44,758 nt of DNA from the IMG/VR virus record IMGVR_UViG_3300025853_000174, positions 1 through 44,758 of that record, one strand, 5' to 3'. The notes under the pieces were generated by a model. The model searched no databases, was not told the origin of the DNA, and saw only the letters and a list, made by a program, of their open reading frames with translations. A program made the position numbers and the translations under genes. This DNA is from a virus. Below are positions 2,943 through 4,752 of this stretch, one piece after another (the stretch's first letter is position 1; the number at the start of each line of letters is the position of its first letter).

Positions 2943-2988
2943 AATAATAGCACGACTAGAAAAAATTATCTATCGGCAGATTGACGCA
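2943..2988 (-). promoter_or_regulatory. Intergenic promoter cassette 7 (divergent sequence, same layout)
   Basis: Minus strand: TGCGTCA box (2988-2982), inverted repeat CGATAGA / TCTAGTCG with one bulged base (2975-2969 with 2960-2953), TATTATT (2948-2943), AAGGAG leader of the 320-aa gene. The stem sequence is unrelated to cassettes 1-6, yet an inverted repeat is kept at the same place. Confidence 0.6.
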
Positions 2989-2993
2989 CCTAG

Positions 2994-3054
2994 TTTAGAA
3001 TAATTCTAAAGTGGCTGCGACAAAATGTCGCAGGGCAATCTGTCATGTTGACAG
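2994..3054. promoter_or_regulatory. Bidirectional control region with three stacked inverted repeats
   Basis: Between the divergent 320-aa and 56-aa genes lie, in order, TTTAGAATAATTCTAAA (2994-3010), CTGCGACAAAATGTCGCAG (3015-3033, the reverse orientation of the left-end palindrome) and CTGTCATGTTGACAG (3040-3054). Three different perfect palindromes within 61 bases between divergent promoters look like operator sites. Confidence 0.65.
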
Positions 3055-3059
3055 AGTTT

Positions 3060-3084
3060 CAAGCCTCAAGCCTCAAGCTCCAAG
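3060..3084 (+). repeat. Degenerate CAAGC heptad repeats
   Basis: CAAGCCTCAAGCCTCAAGCT is followed by CCAAGG: tandem 7-base units of the form CAAGCNT/CAAGCNW. They lead directly into the TGCGACA box of cassette 8, as better-preserved copies do before cassette 9 (3751-3785). Confidence 0.7.
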
Positions 3085-3085
3085 G

Positions 3086-3131
3086 TGCGACAATAATGTG
3101 AATGTATTAAAAAATTTATTCATGCCATAAT
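3086..3131 (+). promoter_or_regulatory. Promoter cassette 8 (plus strand)
   Basis: TGCGACA (3086-3092), exactly 33 bases, then CATAAT (3126-3131), 6 bases before the ATG at 3138. A weak inverted repeat TGAAT / ATTCA (3099-3103, 3118-3122) occupies the middle. The geometry equals that of the minus-strand cassettes, and the short distance to ATG mirrors cassette 1. Confidence 0.6.
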
Positions 3132-3137
3132 TCGAAT

Positions 3138-3308
3138 ATGTTTAATTTAAATAAATTTGACACACAAAAAGAAATTTGGGAGGAGCCATCTTTAATAGAT
3201 GAAGTAGAAGATACTAAAAACTACCACGGTTTATTTCCTAGATTTTGGTATAACAAACCAAGTAATAAAGACATGGAGGAATTAGAAAAAATGTTTAAAT
3301 ATAATTAA
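3138..3308 (+). CDS. Hypothetical protein, 56 aa
   Basis: A 56-residue acidic, soluble ORF (MFNLNKFDTQKEIWEEPSLI..., ending EELEKMFKYN). No SD is visible; the ATG is 6 bases after the -10-like box, suggesting a leaderless message. It is the first plus-strand gene right of the bidirectional region. Codon use is normal for this sequence. No family recognised. The stop at 3306-3308 is directly followed by the pseudoknot element at 3311, so the structured RNA region may be its 3' untranslated part or a separate transcript. Confidence 0.6.
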   Translation: MFNLNKFDTQKEIWEEPSLIDEVEDTKNYHGLFPRFWYNKPSNKDMEELEKMFKYN

Positions 3309-3310
3309 AG

Positions 3311-3356
3311 AATTTCCGTTTGCTAGTATCCGAAATTAAAAACTCAAACTAGCAAG
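3311..3356 (+). ncRNA. Candidate H-type pseudoknot
   Basis: Stem 1 AATTTC (3311-3316) pairs with GAAATT (3332-3337). Inside that loop, TTGCTAGT (3320-3327) pairs with ACTAGCAA (3348-3355), which lies outside stem 1, forming a classic H-type pseudoknot. T3319 with G3356 would extend stem 2 as a U-G wobble only if the plus strand is the RNA. Such folds occur in small riboswitches, frameshift signals and exonuclease-resistant RNAs; the role here is unknown. Confidence 0.55.
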
Positions 3357-3361
3357 GACAG

Positions 3362-3403
3362 ACTCAGGGTCACACCGCCTACTGCAGGCCGTCTTCCCTG
3401 AGT
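3362..3403 (+). ncRNA. Structured RNA module A (hairpin)
   Basis: ACTCAGGG (3362-3369) pairs perfectly with CCCTGAGT (3396-3403), and within it GCCT (3377-3380) pairs with AGGC (3386-3389). It sits one base before module B and probably belongs to the same transcript. Confidence 0.6.
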
Positions 3404-3404
3404 A

Positions 3405-3484
3405 CTGATCCCTGGTCCATTGAGCGGTAACAGCTCCCGAAGTTCTAGACGTGTTTCGGCTAATATCGATGGACCTGGGATCAG
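3405..3484 (+). ncRNA. Structured RNA module B (three-way junction)
   Basis: CTGATCCCTGGTCCAT (3405-3420) pairs with ATGGACCTGGGATCAG (3469-3484): 15 pairs and one T-T mismatch (3413/3476). Inside are two hairpins, GAGC/GCTC with a 7-base loop (3422-3436) and CCGAA/TTCGG with a 13-base loop (3437-3459) that contains the self-complementary TCTAGA. A long, GC-rich stem like this stands out sharply from the AT-rich background. No known RNA family recognised. Confidence 0.65.
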
Positions 3485-3559
3485 GTAAGTTGATTGAAAA
3501 ATTAGATATCAAAAGCAGGATAACACGAGGATGCTAACGCTACCCGCACTTGCCCTGAA

Positions 3560-3661
3560 CTGATCCCTGGTCACTGTGAGATTGTTCTCACTTGCGAGAC
3601 ATCACCTTAAATGGTGGTTATAAATAGAAGATGCATCTTGCTTGCAGTGACCTGGGATCGG
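3560..3661 (+). ncRNA. Structured RNA module C, sharing the basal helix of module B
   Basis: CTGATCCCTGGTCACTG (3560-3576) pairs with CAGTGACCTGGGATCGG (3645-3661). The GATCCC-T-GGTC helix and its T-T mismatch (3568/3653) are identical to module B, while the distal base pairs differ but stay complementary. Pair 3561/3660 is T-G, a wobble only on the plus strand. Inner elements: GTGAGA-TTGT-TCTCAC (3576-3591), CACC/GGTG, and the palindrome AAGATGCATCTT (3628-3639). The linker 3485-3559 shows no clear fold. No protein-coding gene is supported between 3309 and 3850. Confidence 0.65.
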
Positions 3662-3697
3662 CTGGAAGACGCAATGAGCGCCAGCTGGTCCATAATT

Positions 3698-3785
3698 AAG
3701 CATCAAGCAACAAGCTGTGACAAATTGTCGCGCGTCAATTTGTTTCTTGACTCAAGCGTCAAGCATCAAGCGACAAGCTGTGACA
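3698..3785 (+). repeat. CAAGCGACAAGC-type repeats with TGYGACA junctions
   Basis: Two blocks: 3698-3722 (AAGCATCAAGCAACAAGCTG then TGACA) running into the palindrome GTGACAAATTGTCGC (3717-3731), and 3751-3785 (five CAAGC units) running into TGTGACA. The unit is 7 bases, CAAGCRW. The second block forms the upstream part of cassette 9. Confidence 0.75.
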
Positions 3786-3826
3786 ATTATGTAAGGTGAA
3801 TAAAAAAATAATTAGTTTAATATAAT
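3779..3826 (+). promoter_or_regulatory. Promoter cassette 9 (plus strand, GP88 gene)
   Basis: TGTGACA (3779-3785), 35 bases, TATAAT (3821-3826), then a leader ending ACCAAGGAG before ATG 3851. The leader is nearly identical to the leaders in the minus-strand array, so this gene belongs to the same control group. No strong inverted repeat is present here. Confidence 0.65.
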
Positions 3827-3850
3827 AAAAAAAACCAAGGAGTAAAAAAA

Positions 3851-4450
3851 ATGAATACTAAAGAAGCATGGGCCCTGGTTGGAGGGCTTAGTAAACCATC
3901 AAAGATGCCTGGCTGGTCAATAGGTATTCCCGCTAAGGAGTGCAAGACCGGCGCAAAGTTAAGACTAATTAAAGACTCAGTTTGTTTTAATTGCTATGCC
4001 CTGAAGGGTATGTATAGATTTAGTACTGTACAGAAGGCCCAATATAAAAGGCTGGACGCTTTAAAAAATCCATACTGGGTTGAAGCAATGACAACTTTAA
4101 TTAATTCAAAAAAGCCTGATGTCTTTAGATGGCACGACAGCGGGGACGTCCAAGACCTGGACCACCTGAACAAGATATATGAAGTCTGTAAGGCAACGCC
4201 AAGCAAGCGACACTGGATGCCAACTAGAGAAGCCTGGATCAAGGACCATCTAGACAACAAGCCTGACAATCTTGTAATACGTTTTTCTTCTCCAATGGTT
4301 GACCAGGGGCCAGTCATGAGCTGGCCCAATACGTCGACAGTTTCAACGAAGAGTCGAACATGTCCTGCACCTGACCAAGACAACGCCTGCGGTGATTGTA
4401 GAGCGTGCTGGGATCCTGAAGTTAAAAACATTGAATACGGACAGCACTAA
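3851..4450 (+). CDS. GP88-family phage protein
   Basis: 199 residues. It matches the phage Gene-product-88 family: an N-terminal block with C31, C45 and C48 (DSVCFNCYALKGMY), the central RWHDSGDV (93-100), HWMPTREAW (121-129), and a C-terminal cysteine cluster C171, C180, C183, C186. The cysteine arrangement suggests a bound metal or Fe-S centre. The family is widespread in phages of many hosts but has no established function that I know of. ATG follows AAGGAG. Its GC content is higher than that of surrounding genes, especially in the first half, a sign of different ancestry. It is followed one base later by a small ORF built partly from repeats. Confidence 0.85.
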   Translation: MNTKEAWALVGGLSKPSKMPGWSIGIPAKECKTGAKLRLIKDSVCFNCYALKGMYRFSTVQKAQYKRLDALKNPYWVEAMTTLINSKKPDVFRWHDSGDVQDLDHLNKIYEVCKATPSKRHWMPTREAWIKDHLDNKPDNLVIRFSSPMVDQGPVMSWPNTSTVSTKSRTCPAPDQDNACGDCRACWDPEVKNIEYGQH

Positions 4451-4619: not shown

Positions 4620-4752
4620 GATCCATGAAGCCTGGTGCGTAGCAAACGGCTACAAGCGTCAAGCGACAAGCTGCGACATTTTGACGCAGGACAATTTGCC
4701 TGTTTACAAAAGTTCGGATTACAAAGCGTCAAGCGTCAAGCGACAAGCGTCG
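4552..4752 (+). repeat. CAAGCGTCAAGCGACAAGC repeat cluster
   Basis: Three blocks of the 7-base unit: 4552-4599, 4652-4690 (ending in the imperfect palindrome CTGCGACATTTTGACGCAG at 4671-4689) and 4724-4752. Plus-strand blocks overlap the end of the 55-aa gene; the last block encodes, on the minus strand, the C-terminus of the VRR-NUC protein. 4620-4718 between them has no convincing gene. Confidence 0.8.

Follow-up and report, generated by a model that had tools for sequence, protein, structure and literature searches.

Exchangeable RNA modules closed by a U–U mismatch helix and carrying self-complementary sequences that differ among marine phages

In this work we analysed a stretch of viral DNA of 44,758 nucleotides (IMG/VR record IMGVR_UViG_3300025853_000174, positions 1 to 44,758, called the window throughout) and found that two structured modules in it, B and C, are, by comparison with their relatives, members of a widespread RNA class that has remained unannotated and that many marine phages, from its distribution among contigs, appear to carry as an RNA gene. 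Comparative analysis of the sequences demonstrates the predicted structure of this RNA, its strand, its place in the genome, the exchange of its modules and the preservation of self-complementarity through change. We consider it probable that the array is an independent phage RNA gene whose modules self-associate and whose pairing specificity diversifies; transcription and dimerisation are untested. The features of the locus are summarized in Table 1.

Results

The noncoding region upstream of gp88

The region of about 540 bases that the initial annotation described as free of genes measures 542 nt (3309–3850) and is flanked by a 56-aa ORF and by gp88; it contains no tRNA and only short unsupported ORFs, with no supported gene, and a protein-coding test found no conserved reading frame in the modules. 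Compared with shuffled sequence, the entire stretch folds with a z-score of −6.7, module B with −5.5 (−38.6 kcal/mol) and module C with −6.5 (−45.4 kcal/mol), while the fold of module A has an energy of −20.0 kcal/mol. Modules B and C do have the common basal helix attributed to them: both start with CTGATCCC-U-GGTC and end with GACC-U-GGGATC, and both carry the T–T mismatch (T3413 opposite T3476 and T3568 opposite T3653, the U–U of the RNA). The adjoining pairs differ yet pair (CCATTG/CGATGG and ACTG/CAGT), the two interiors are unrelated, and the T–G pair reported for module C is present (T3561–G3660). A chance origin of the common helix is excluded because relatives exist. The two hairpins proposed for module B are backed by covariation, with double changes at 8 pairs in an alignment of 4 sequences in which 98.9% of cells are paired. 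Module A had been called a perfect hairpin, which holds for its outer arms but not beyond them, where an internal loop UCAC/CUU and a C–C mismatch follow. It combines an internal-loop motif, UCACACCG..CGUCUU, with the palindrome CTGCAG (3382–3387), and module C contains the palindrome AAGATGCATCTT (3628–3639). The initial annotation had overlooked the self-complementary sequences of the interiors, the exchange of the modules and the persistence of the U–U on replaced helices.

Table 1. Features of the array and its surroundings in the window
Feature	Position	Strand	Basis or remark
Possible −10 box TATAAT	3300–3305	+	Sequence; promoter role inferred; precedes the 5′ hairpin; no good −35
5′ leader hairpin, loop ATCCGAAATTAAAAACTCAA	3318–3356	+	Loop conserved, stem altered yet paired in relatives
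Module A hairpin ACTCAGGG/CCCTGAGT	3362–3403	+	Fold z −4.3; relatives L019, L128
Module B, basal helix CTGATCCC-U-GGTCCATT/GATGGACC-U-GGGATCAG	3405–3484	+	Covariation in relatives
Module B hairpin P2	3422–3436	+	Covariation in relatives of B
Module B hairpin P3, palindrome TCTAGA (3444–3449) in loop	3437–3459	+	Covariation in relatives
B–C linker, probably structured	3485–3559	+	Fold; 97% identity in L128
Module C, basal helix as in B, three hairpins	3560–3661	+	Relatives L264, L187
3′ hairpin GGCTGG..GCCAGC, directly 3′ of C	3660–3686	+	Fold; relatives L135, L127
Two CAAGC-repeat elements closing the array, into the gp88 upstream region	3698–3723, 3761–3786 (3698–3786)	+	Repeats follow the array in relatives
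gp88 (Pfam PF17338), context, outside the RNA	3851–4450	+	Constant downstream neighbour

The stem of the 5′ leader hairpin is formed by TTGCTAGT/ACTAGCAA (3320–3327 paired with 3348–3355), and it is changed and still paired in L205, L060, L251, L161 and other relatives. The same hairpin, with its conserved 20-nt loop and compensated stem, was seen at 3239–3277 of L205 and at 1035–1076 of L142; it lies directly 3′ of the promoters of RNA arrays and, in the phage 023Pt_psg01, of the promoter of an ORF, and is a candidate for a 5′ stabilising leader. The UCACACCG...CGUCUU motif of module A (3370–3395) also recurs in hairpins immediately 5′ of the first module in other loci (L013, L173, L199, L232 and L291), with very different apical loops.

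A widespread class of modules

At least 386 distinct modules were collected in at least 333 loci, nearly all of them on uncultured marine viral contigs. The loci came from a scan of IMG/VR for the exact basal helix, which matched at least 120 stretches, from a scan for a second, compensatory helix type, GATCCCTGATC/GATCTGGGATC, which matched at least 120 stretches there as well, from the neighbouring gene gp88 and from a third motif; some of them overlap or stem from one population. Most were selected by pattern, which biases the counts of helix conservation upward, a bias that is weaker or absent for the counts of orientation, U–U, G–U and gp88-first retrieval. Loci retrieved through gp88 only, with at least 1 kb upstream, contained modules in 57 of 65 cases. 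Two complete phage records, HTVC027P and 023Pt_psg01, carry unannotated modules; the former has Pelagibacter HTCC1062 as its host and the latter comes from seawater. A SAR11 host is plausible for the window phage, given that HTVC027P infects Pelagibacter; the host is not shown for the window contig itself. No exact module was found in the GTDB contigs (84,980 bacterial and archaeal species genomes). A blastn search with 900 bases against deposited phages gave no nucleotide relatives, because hardly anything except the helices is conserved, and open-access papers dealing with noncoding RNA in pelagiphages or with RF02976 hold no description of such an RNA.

Covariation, strand and the U–U mismatch

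In 73 non-redundant module ends, 98.0% of the cells of the basal helix are standard pairs, compared with 77.5% when shuffled and 18–53% when slid, both sides have changed in 11 of the 15 pairs, and covariation scores 0.557 versus 0.144. The interiors are free in sequence and in length (42–124 nt) while pairing is maintained. Loss of the stems in homologues had been named as an outcome that would refute a new phage noncoding RNA; relatives retain them by compensatory change and, with no Rfam match in the window, that candidacy is strengthened. G–U pairs outnumber A–C pairs by 168 to 37, and by 321 to 52 in a larger set, which argues that the array is an RNA of the + strand. The claim of a plus-strand RNA, first made from the T–G pair alone, is thus upheld by this asymmetry and by gene order, without expression data. 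These observations also bear on whether the array might act as DNA, in the form of cruciforms or dyad sites used for recombination, for packaging or by a DNA-binding protein. Palindromes and inverted repeats near terminase genes, in cassettes that are exchanged, would suit such an element, but the excess of G–U over A–C on one strand and the strict orientation of the modules indicate that a single strand is read, and the stems are free to vary while pairing persists, so that we give a DNA element very little credence.

The U–U is found in 360 of the 369 copies whose arms are otherwise consensus, both mismatch positions having been left free in the search. It outlasts replacement of the helix: L264 and L187 keep the interior of module C on replaced basal helices with U–U at the junction, and U–U also persists in a relative of module B with a replaced helix (L380). 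This suggests, as an inference, that the mismatch and not the helix sequence is what is recognised.

Gene order and transcription unit

The modules lie in one orientation, between the divergent terL/p332 and gp88/terS. Downstream and on the same strand are gp88 (427 of 427 modules) and terS (333 of 335); terL is upstream on the opposite strand (247 of 250). Where phages lack gp88 (L064, L097 and L082), the array is still a neighbour of terS and is flanked on its other side by terL or an ArdC-like gene.

In 84 of 231 loci the first module is preceded by a sigma-70-type promoter that matches at least 10 of 12 positions; by the same criterion, 18 are found in shuffles and 68 on the opposite strand, on which the divergent gene would be expected to have a promoter of its own. 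Since shuffles and the opposite strand also score, the case for a promoter rests on clustering, mostly at 100–150 nt upstream of the first module, and on a recurrent sequence, TTGACAATAGGATAGTCAAGCATTATATT. Relatives have a TTGACA-17-TATATT promoter at the place that corresponds to TATAAT in the window. Of 226 loci, 171 have a hairpin of at least 7 bp directly adjoining the first module, compared with 50 of 226 shuffles, and 3′ of the array a CAAGC-repeat element, which runs into the next TTGACA promoter, is present in 214 of 286 loci, at a median of 425 nt from the predicted start (81 loci). Because promoter, abutting hairpin and CAAGC element flank the modules, we read the array as a putative transcription unit of its own, for which there are no expression data. 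In the window, transcription of the unit may start farther upstream, as its own promoter is weak, consisting only of the box listed in Table 1.

Besides the two copies that close the array, the window has CAAGC repeats at 3068–3093 and 4654–4679; all four are on the + strand within a single locus, have a period of about 7 nt and run into TTGACA-like boxes, as if they formed a regulatory element of these phages that is tied to promoters.

Exchange of interiors between phages

Only 10 of 237 phage pairs with 85–95% DNA identity in gp88 have a module in common (at least 75% identity), whereas 148 pairs with at most 70% identity in gp88 have one in common at 85% identity or more, some modules being identical. 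As near phages differ and distant phages match in their modules, the interiors must move between phages, and by this comparison they are exchangeable cassettes. The alignment of very divergent interiors is uncertain, and their diversification could be the product of recombination without selection.

Extreme diversity and exchange between phages are also what an arms race would be expected to produce, and an RNA with its own promoter could serve as a decoy or counter-defence RNA, its interiors diversifying to escape or titrate host defence factors and its constant helix providing stability. Such a role does not predict the palindrome switching described below, and no defence-related family is found among the neighbours, where defence-system models gave no match; we regard it as improbable, even if it counts, together with the structured RNA without self-pairing considered below, as one of the two strongest rivals to self-association.

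Self-complementary sequences

Palindromes are in excess in 162 non-redundant modules, with 200 of 6 nt (117 ± 10 expected), 79 of 8 nt (29 ± 5.5 expected) and 26 of 10 nt (7.5 ± 2.8 expected). In the largest family, of which 25 modules were aligned (24 in one listing) and which has UAUUAGUG...GUGAAGAG in common, all except two modules have a palindrome near the apex, which may be TCTATAGA, GCATGC, CTGCAG, TCTAGA, CGGCCG, CGTACG, CCCGGG, GCTAGC, CTCGAG, AGGCCT or AGATCT. Between relatives that are 70–90% identical, a changed palindrome is palindromic again in 70 of 136 comparisons, against 4.8 expected. Because these comparisons are not independent and the alignment of interiors is uncertain, tests at the level of families were used. 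When the central adjacent bases change, self-complementarity is kept in a mean of 49% of cases, compared with 3% for self-complementary dinucleotides outside palindromes (16 families), and family-weighted palindrome switching is higher in 11 families, lower in 1 and tied in 3 (p = 0.0015). Comparison of the modules shows, in their sequences, selection for self-complementary stretches that differ among phages. Of the 64 possible 6-nt palindromes, 58 occur in the non-redundant modules, some of them by chance.

Self-pairing is not universal, because palindromes of at least 6 nt are absent from 73 of the 248 non-redundant modules and several conserved families are without a palindrome. Of the switching palindromes, 34% fall within closable hairpin loops, compared with 11% of other hexamers; for the remaining 66% no simple closable hairpin loop could be assigned. 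In relatives of module B, TCTAGA stays in the loop with stems CCGAA/UUCGG, CCGGA/UCCGG and CUAGA/UCUAG. Modules within one locus have a palindrome in common in 2 of 101 pairs (about 5% at random), and cross-pairing among modules of a single genome or locus is not above chance. The G–U strand asymmetry within palindromes mostly reflects base composition and was not used as evidence.

The strong intramolecular folds, and the modules that hold no palindrome, would be explained without self-pairing if this were simply a structured phage RNA in which each palindrome formed the tip of a hairpin with a four-base loop and the interiors bound proteins or acted as aptamers, changing by drift and recombination. 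Against this stands that the central adjacent bases, which cannot pair within one chain, stay self-complementary on change; the stems of module B that vary around a retained palindromic loop also speak against it. We think this reading unlikely, but less so than the decoy.

An RNA domain catalogued previously

No Rfam family reaches its gathering score in the array of the window, and at a relaxed threshold the segment 2950–3860 gives just miRNA and PreQ1 matches at chance level. That no known RNA family was recognised therefore stands for the window, but not for the arrays as a whole, since two relatives hold the Rfam family RF02976 (Flavobacterium-1) as a 3′ domain: HTVC027P (L203, 3477–3597, 90.2 bits) and L224 (1168–1287, 105.8 bits), against a gathering cut-off of 58.9 bits. 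RF02976 itself is not found in the window at either gathering or relaxed thresholds. Among the loci fetched, 108 contain its core motif; of the 51 occurrences that share a locus with a module, 43 are on the strand of the module, 135–347 nt downstream of it. It is an optional domain, missing from most arrays, and the modules, the U–U helix and the palindromes are outside its model. The sole reference genome found with the exact core is the Flavobacterium single-cell scaffold KB911123.1 (L332), which encodes a TerS 91% identical to that of the window and a relative of gp88, and which has a canonical module whose palindrome is CTCGAG; it is therefore a phage contig of the same kind, and the host implied by the name of the family is probably an artefact of this contig.

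A second conserved domain, CAGTCATTRTTGACTGTGAGNATAAACACTAGAACA...CGTAGCATAGTGACTGATC, was observed right after the first module (L208, L209, L224, L226 and L203); it joins modules in many arrays and has no Rfam match.

Discussion

A model of self-association

The model that we favour is that of an RNA of about 425 nt (median of the loci in which both ends can be guessed), which would be made up of a hairpin at the 5′ end, between one and three exchangeable modules that the U–U helix closes, and further structured domains. Palindromes would be largely looped and would pair with the same loop on another copy of the same RNA, so that transcripts of one genotype would form dimers and would not associate with those of other genotypes; with several modules per transcript, contacts would be multivalent and larger assemblies possible. 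The constant U–U helix could serve as the shared handle, contacted by a common protein or by stacking, and specificity would lie in the interior, which would be exchanged and diversified since a match to the code of another phage would be disadvantageous. A role in infection, for example in host takeover or in sensing the number of own transcripts or genomes, can only be guessed. We hold more tentatively, as a possibility somewhat short of even, the further step in which the pool of cassettes acts as a genotype code by which like transcripts assemble and those of other phages do not, with diversifying selection on the code.

Comparison with known RNAs

OLE, ROOL and GOLLD are ornate homo-oligomeric RNAs, the latter two found in phages and prophages (PMC12286853). 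In OLE, a palindrome switch from GGCC to GAUC or AGCU supported symmetric loop contacts that were seen directly by cryo-EM (PMC12286853), and a signature of this kind also backs symmetric loop–loop pairing between GOLLD copies. The array RNA resembles GOLLD and ROOL in being a phage-borne structured RNA whose function is unknown, and OLE in its palindrome switching, which fits symmetric loop pairing, although no oligomer has been shown for the module RNA. It differs from all three in its hypervariable, exchangeable modules on a U–U helix and in its palindromes of 6–10 nt and of at least 58 kinds. The Rfam models of GOLLD, ROOL and OLE gave no match in the window and 20 related loci at gathering thresholds, nor in 2950–3860 at a relaxed one.

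In the dimer initiation site of retroviruses, a hairpin loop with a 6-nt palindrome pairs with its counterpart on a second RNA, and the packaged RNA genome is dimerised with the use of few palindromes. The likeness is one of working only, without relationship, as the module RNA is a separate RNA of a DNA phage and has many palindromes. The phi29 packaging RNA is one species with complementary, non-palindromic intermolecular loops that forms a ring on the packaging motor. The module RNA also has paired ends, here with a conserved mismatch, its intermolecular loop–loop contacts are inferred, and its location between terL and terS would suit a packaging RNA that acts with terminase in the phi29 manner. 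Nevertheless, symmetric palindromes would lead to dimers and not to rings, there are several differing modules per genome without mutual complementarity, and a small terminase subunit is already present in these phages, all of which makes a packaging role no more credible than a DNA element. Complementary loops of the phi29 type were rejected directly, module loops being self-complementary and complementarity between modules of a locus not being above chance.

ToxI, the RNA of type III toxin–antitoxin systems, repeats a single sequence next to the gene of a toxin, and the arrays are similar in that tandem structured RNA units precede a gene that has their orientation. A system of this type was rejected: modules within a locus differ, and the neighbours match GP88 and TerS but no toxin of the ToxN, CptN or TenpN kind.

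Significance

If self-association alone is true, this RNA is nearer to the ornate self-assembling RNAs already known; what is new is that a fixed U–U helix is combined with interiors that can be exchanged and with a palindrome code that switches. The many orthogonal palindromic loops, evolving like a code and swapped as cassettes, suggest RNA self-recognition, and we know of no described counterpart of code-like self-recognition through exchanged palindromic cassettes. The orphan family RF02976, one block that was catalogued earlier without a function, gains a context as a domain of a phage RNA. As HTVC027P infects a cultured Pelagibacter, expression and dimerisation are experimentally accessible.

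Other conserved features of the locus

The divergent neighbour p332 (1955–2953 in the window) is conserved beside the arrays; its AlphaFold model is confident (pLDDT 84) and has no PDB match, and the protein belongs to no Pfam or PHROG family. The likewise confident model of gp88 gave only weak, barrel-like matches in the PDB, including radical-SAM enzymes, none of them at E ≤ 0.001, and its alignment has invariant cysteines at C31, C45, C48, C171, C180, C183 and C186 (alignment numbering). Finally, a palindromic element, TTTAGAATGATTCTAAA, is found near promoters of the region in 68 loci, in many of them downstream of the arrays; in the window it occupies 2994–3011 as TTTAGAATAATTCTAAA and is possibly an operator.
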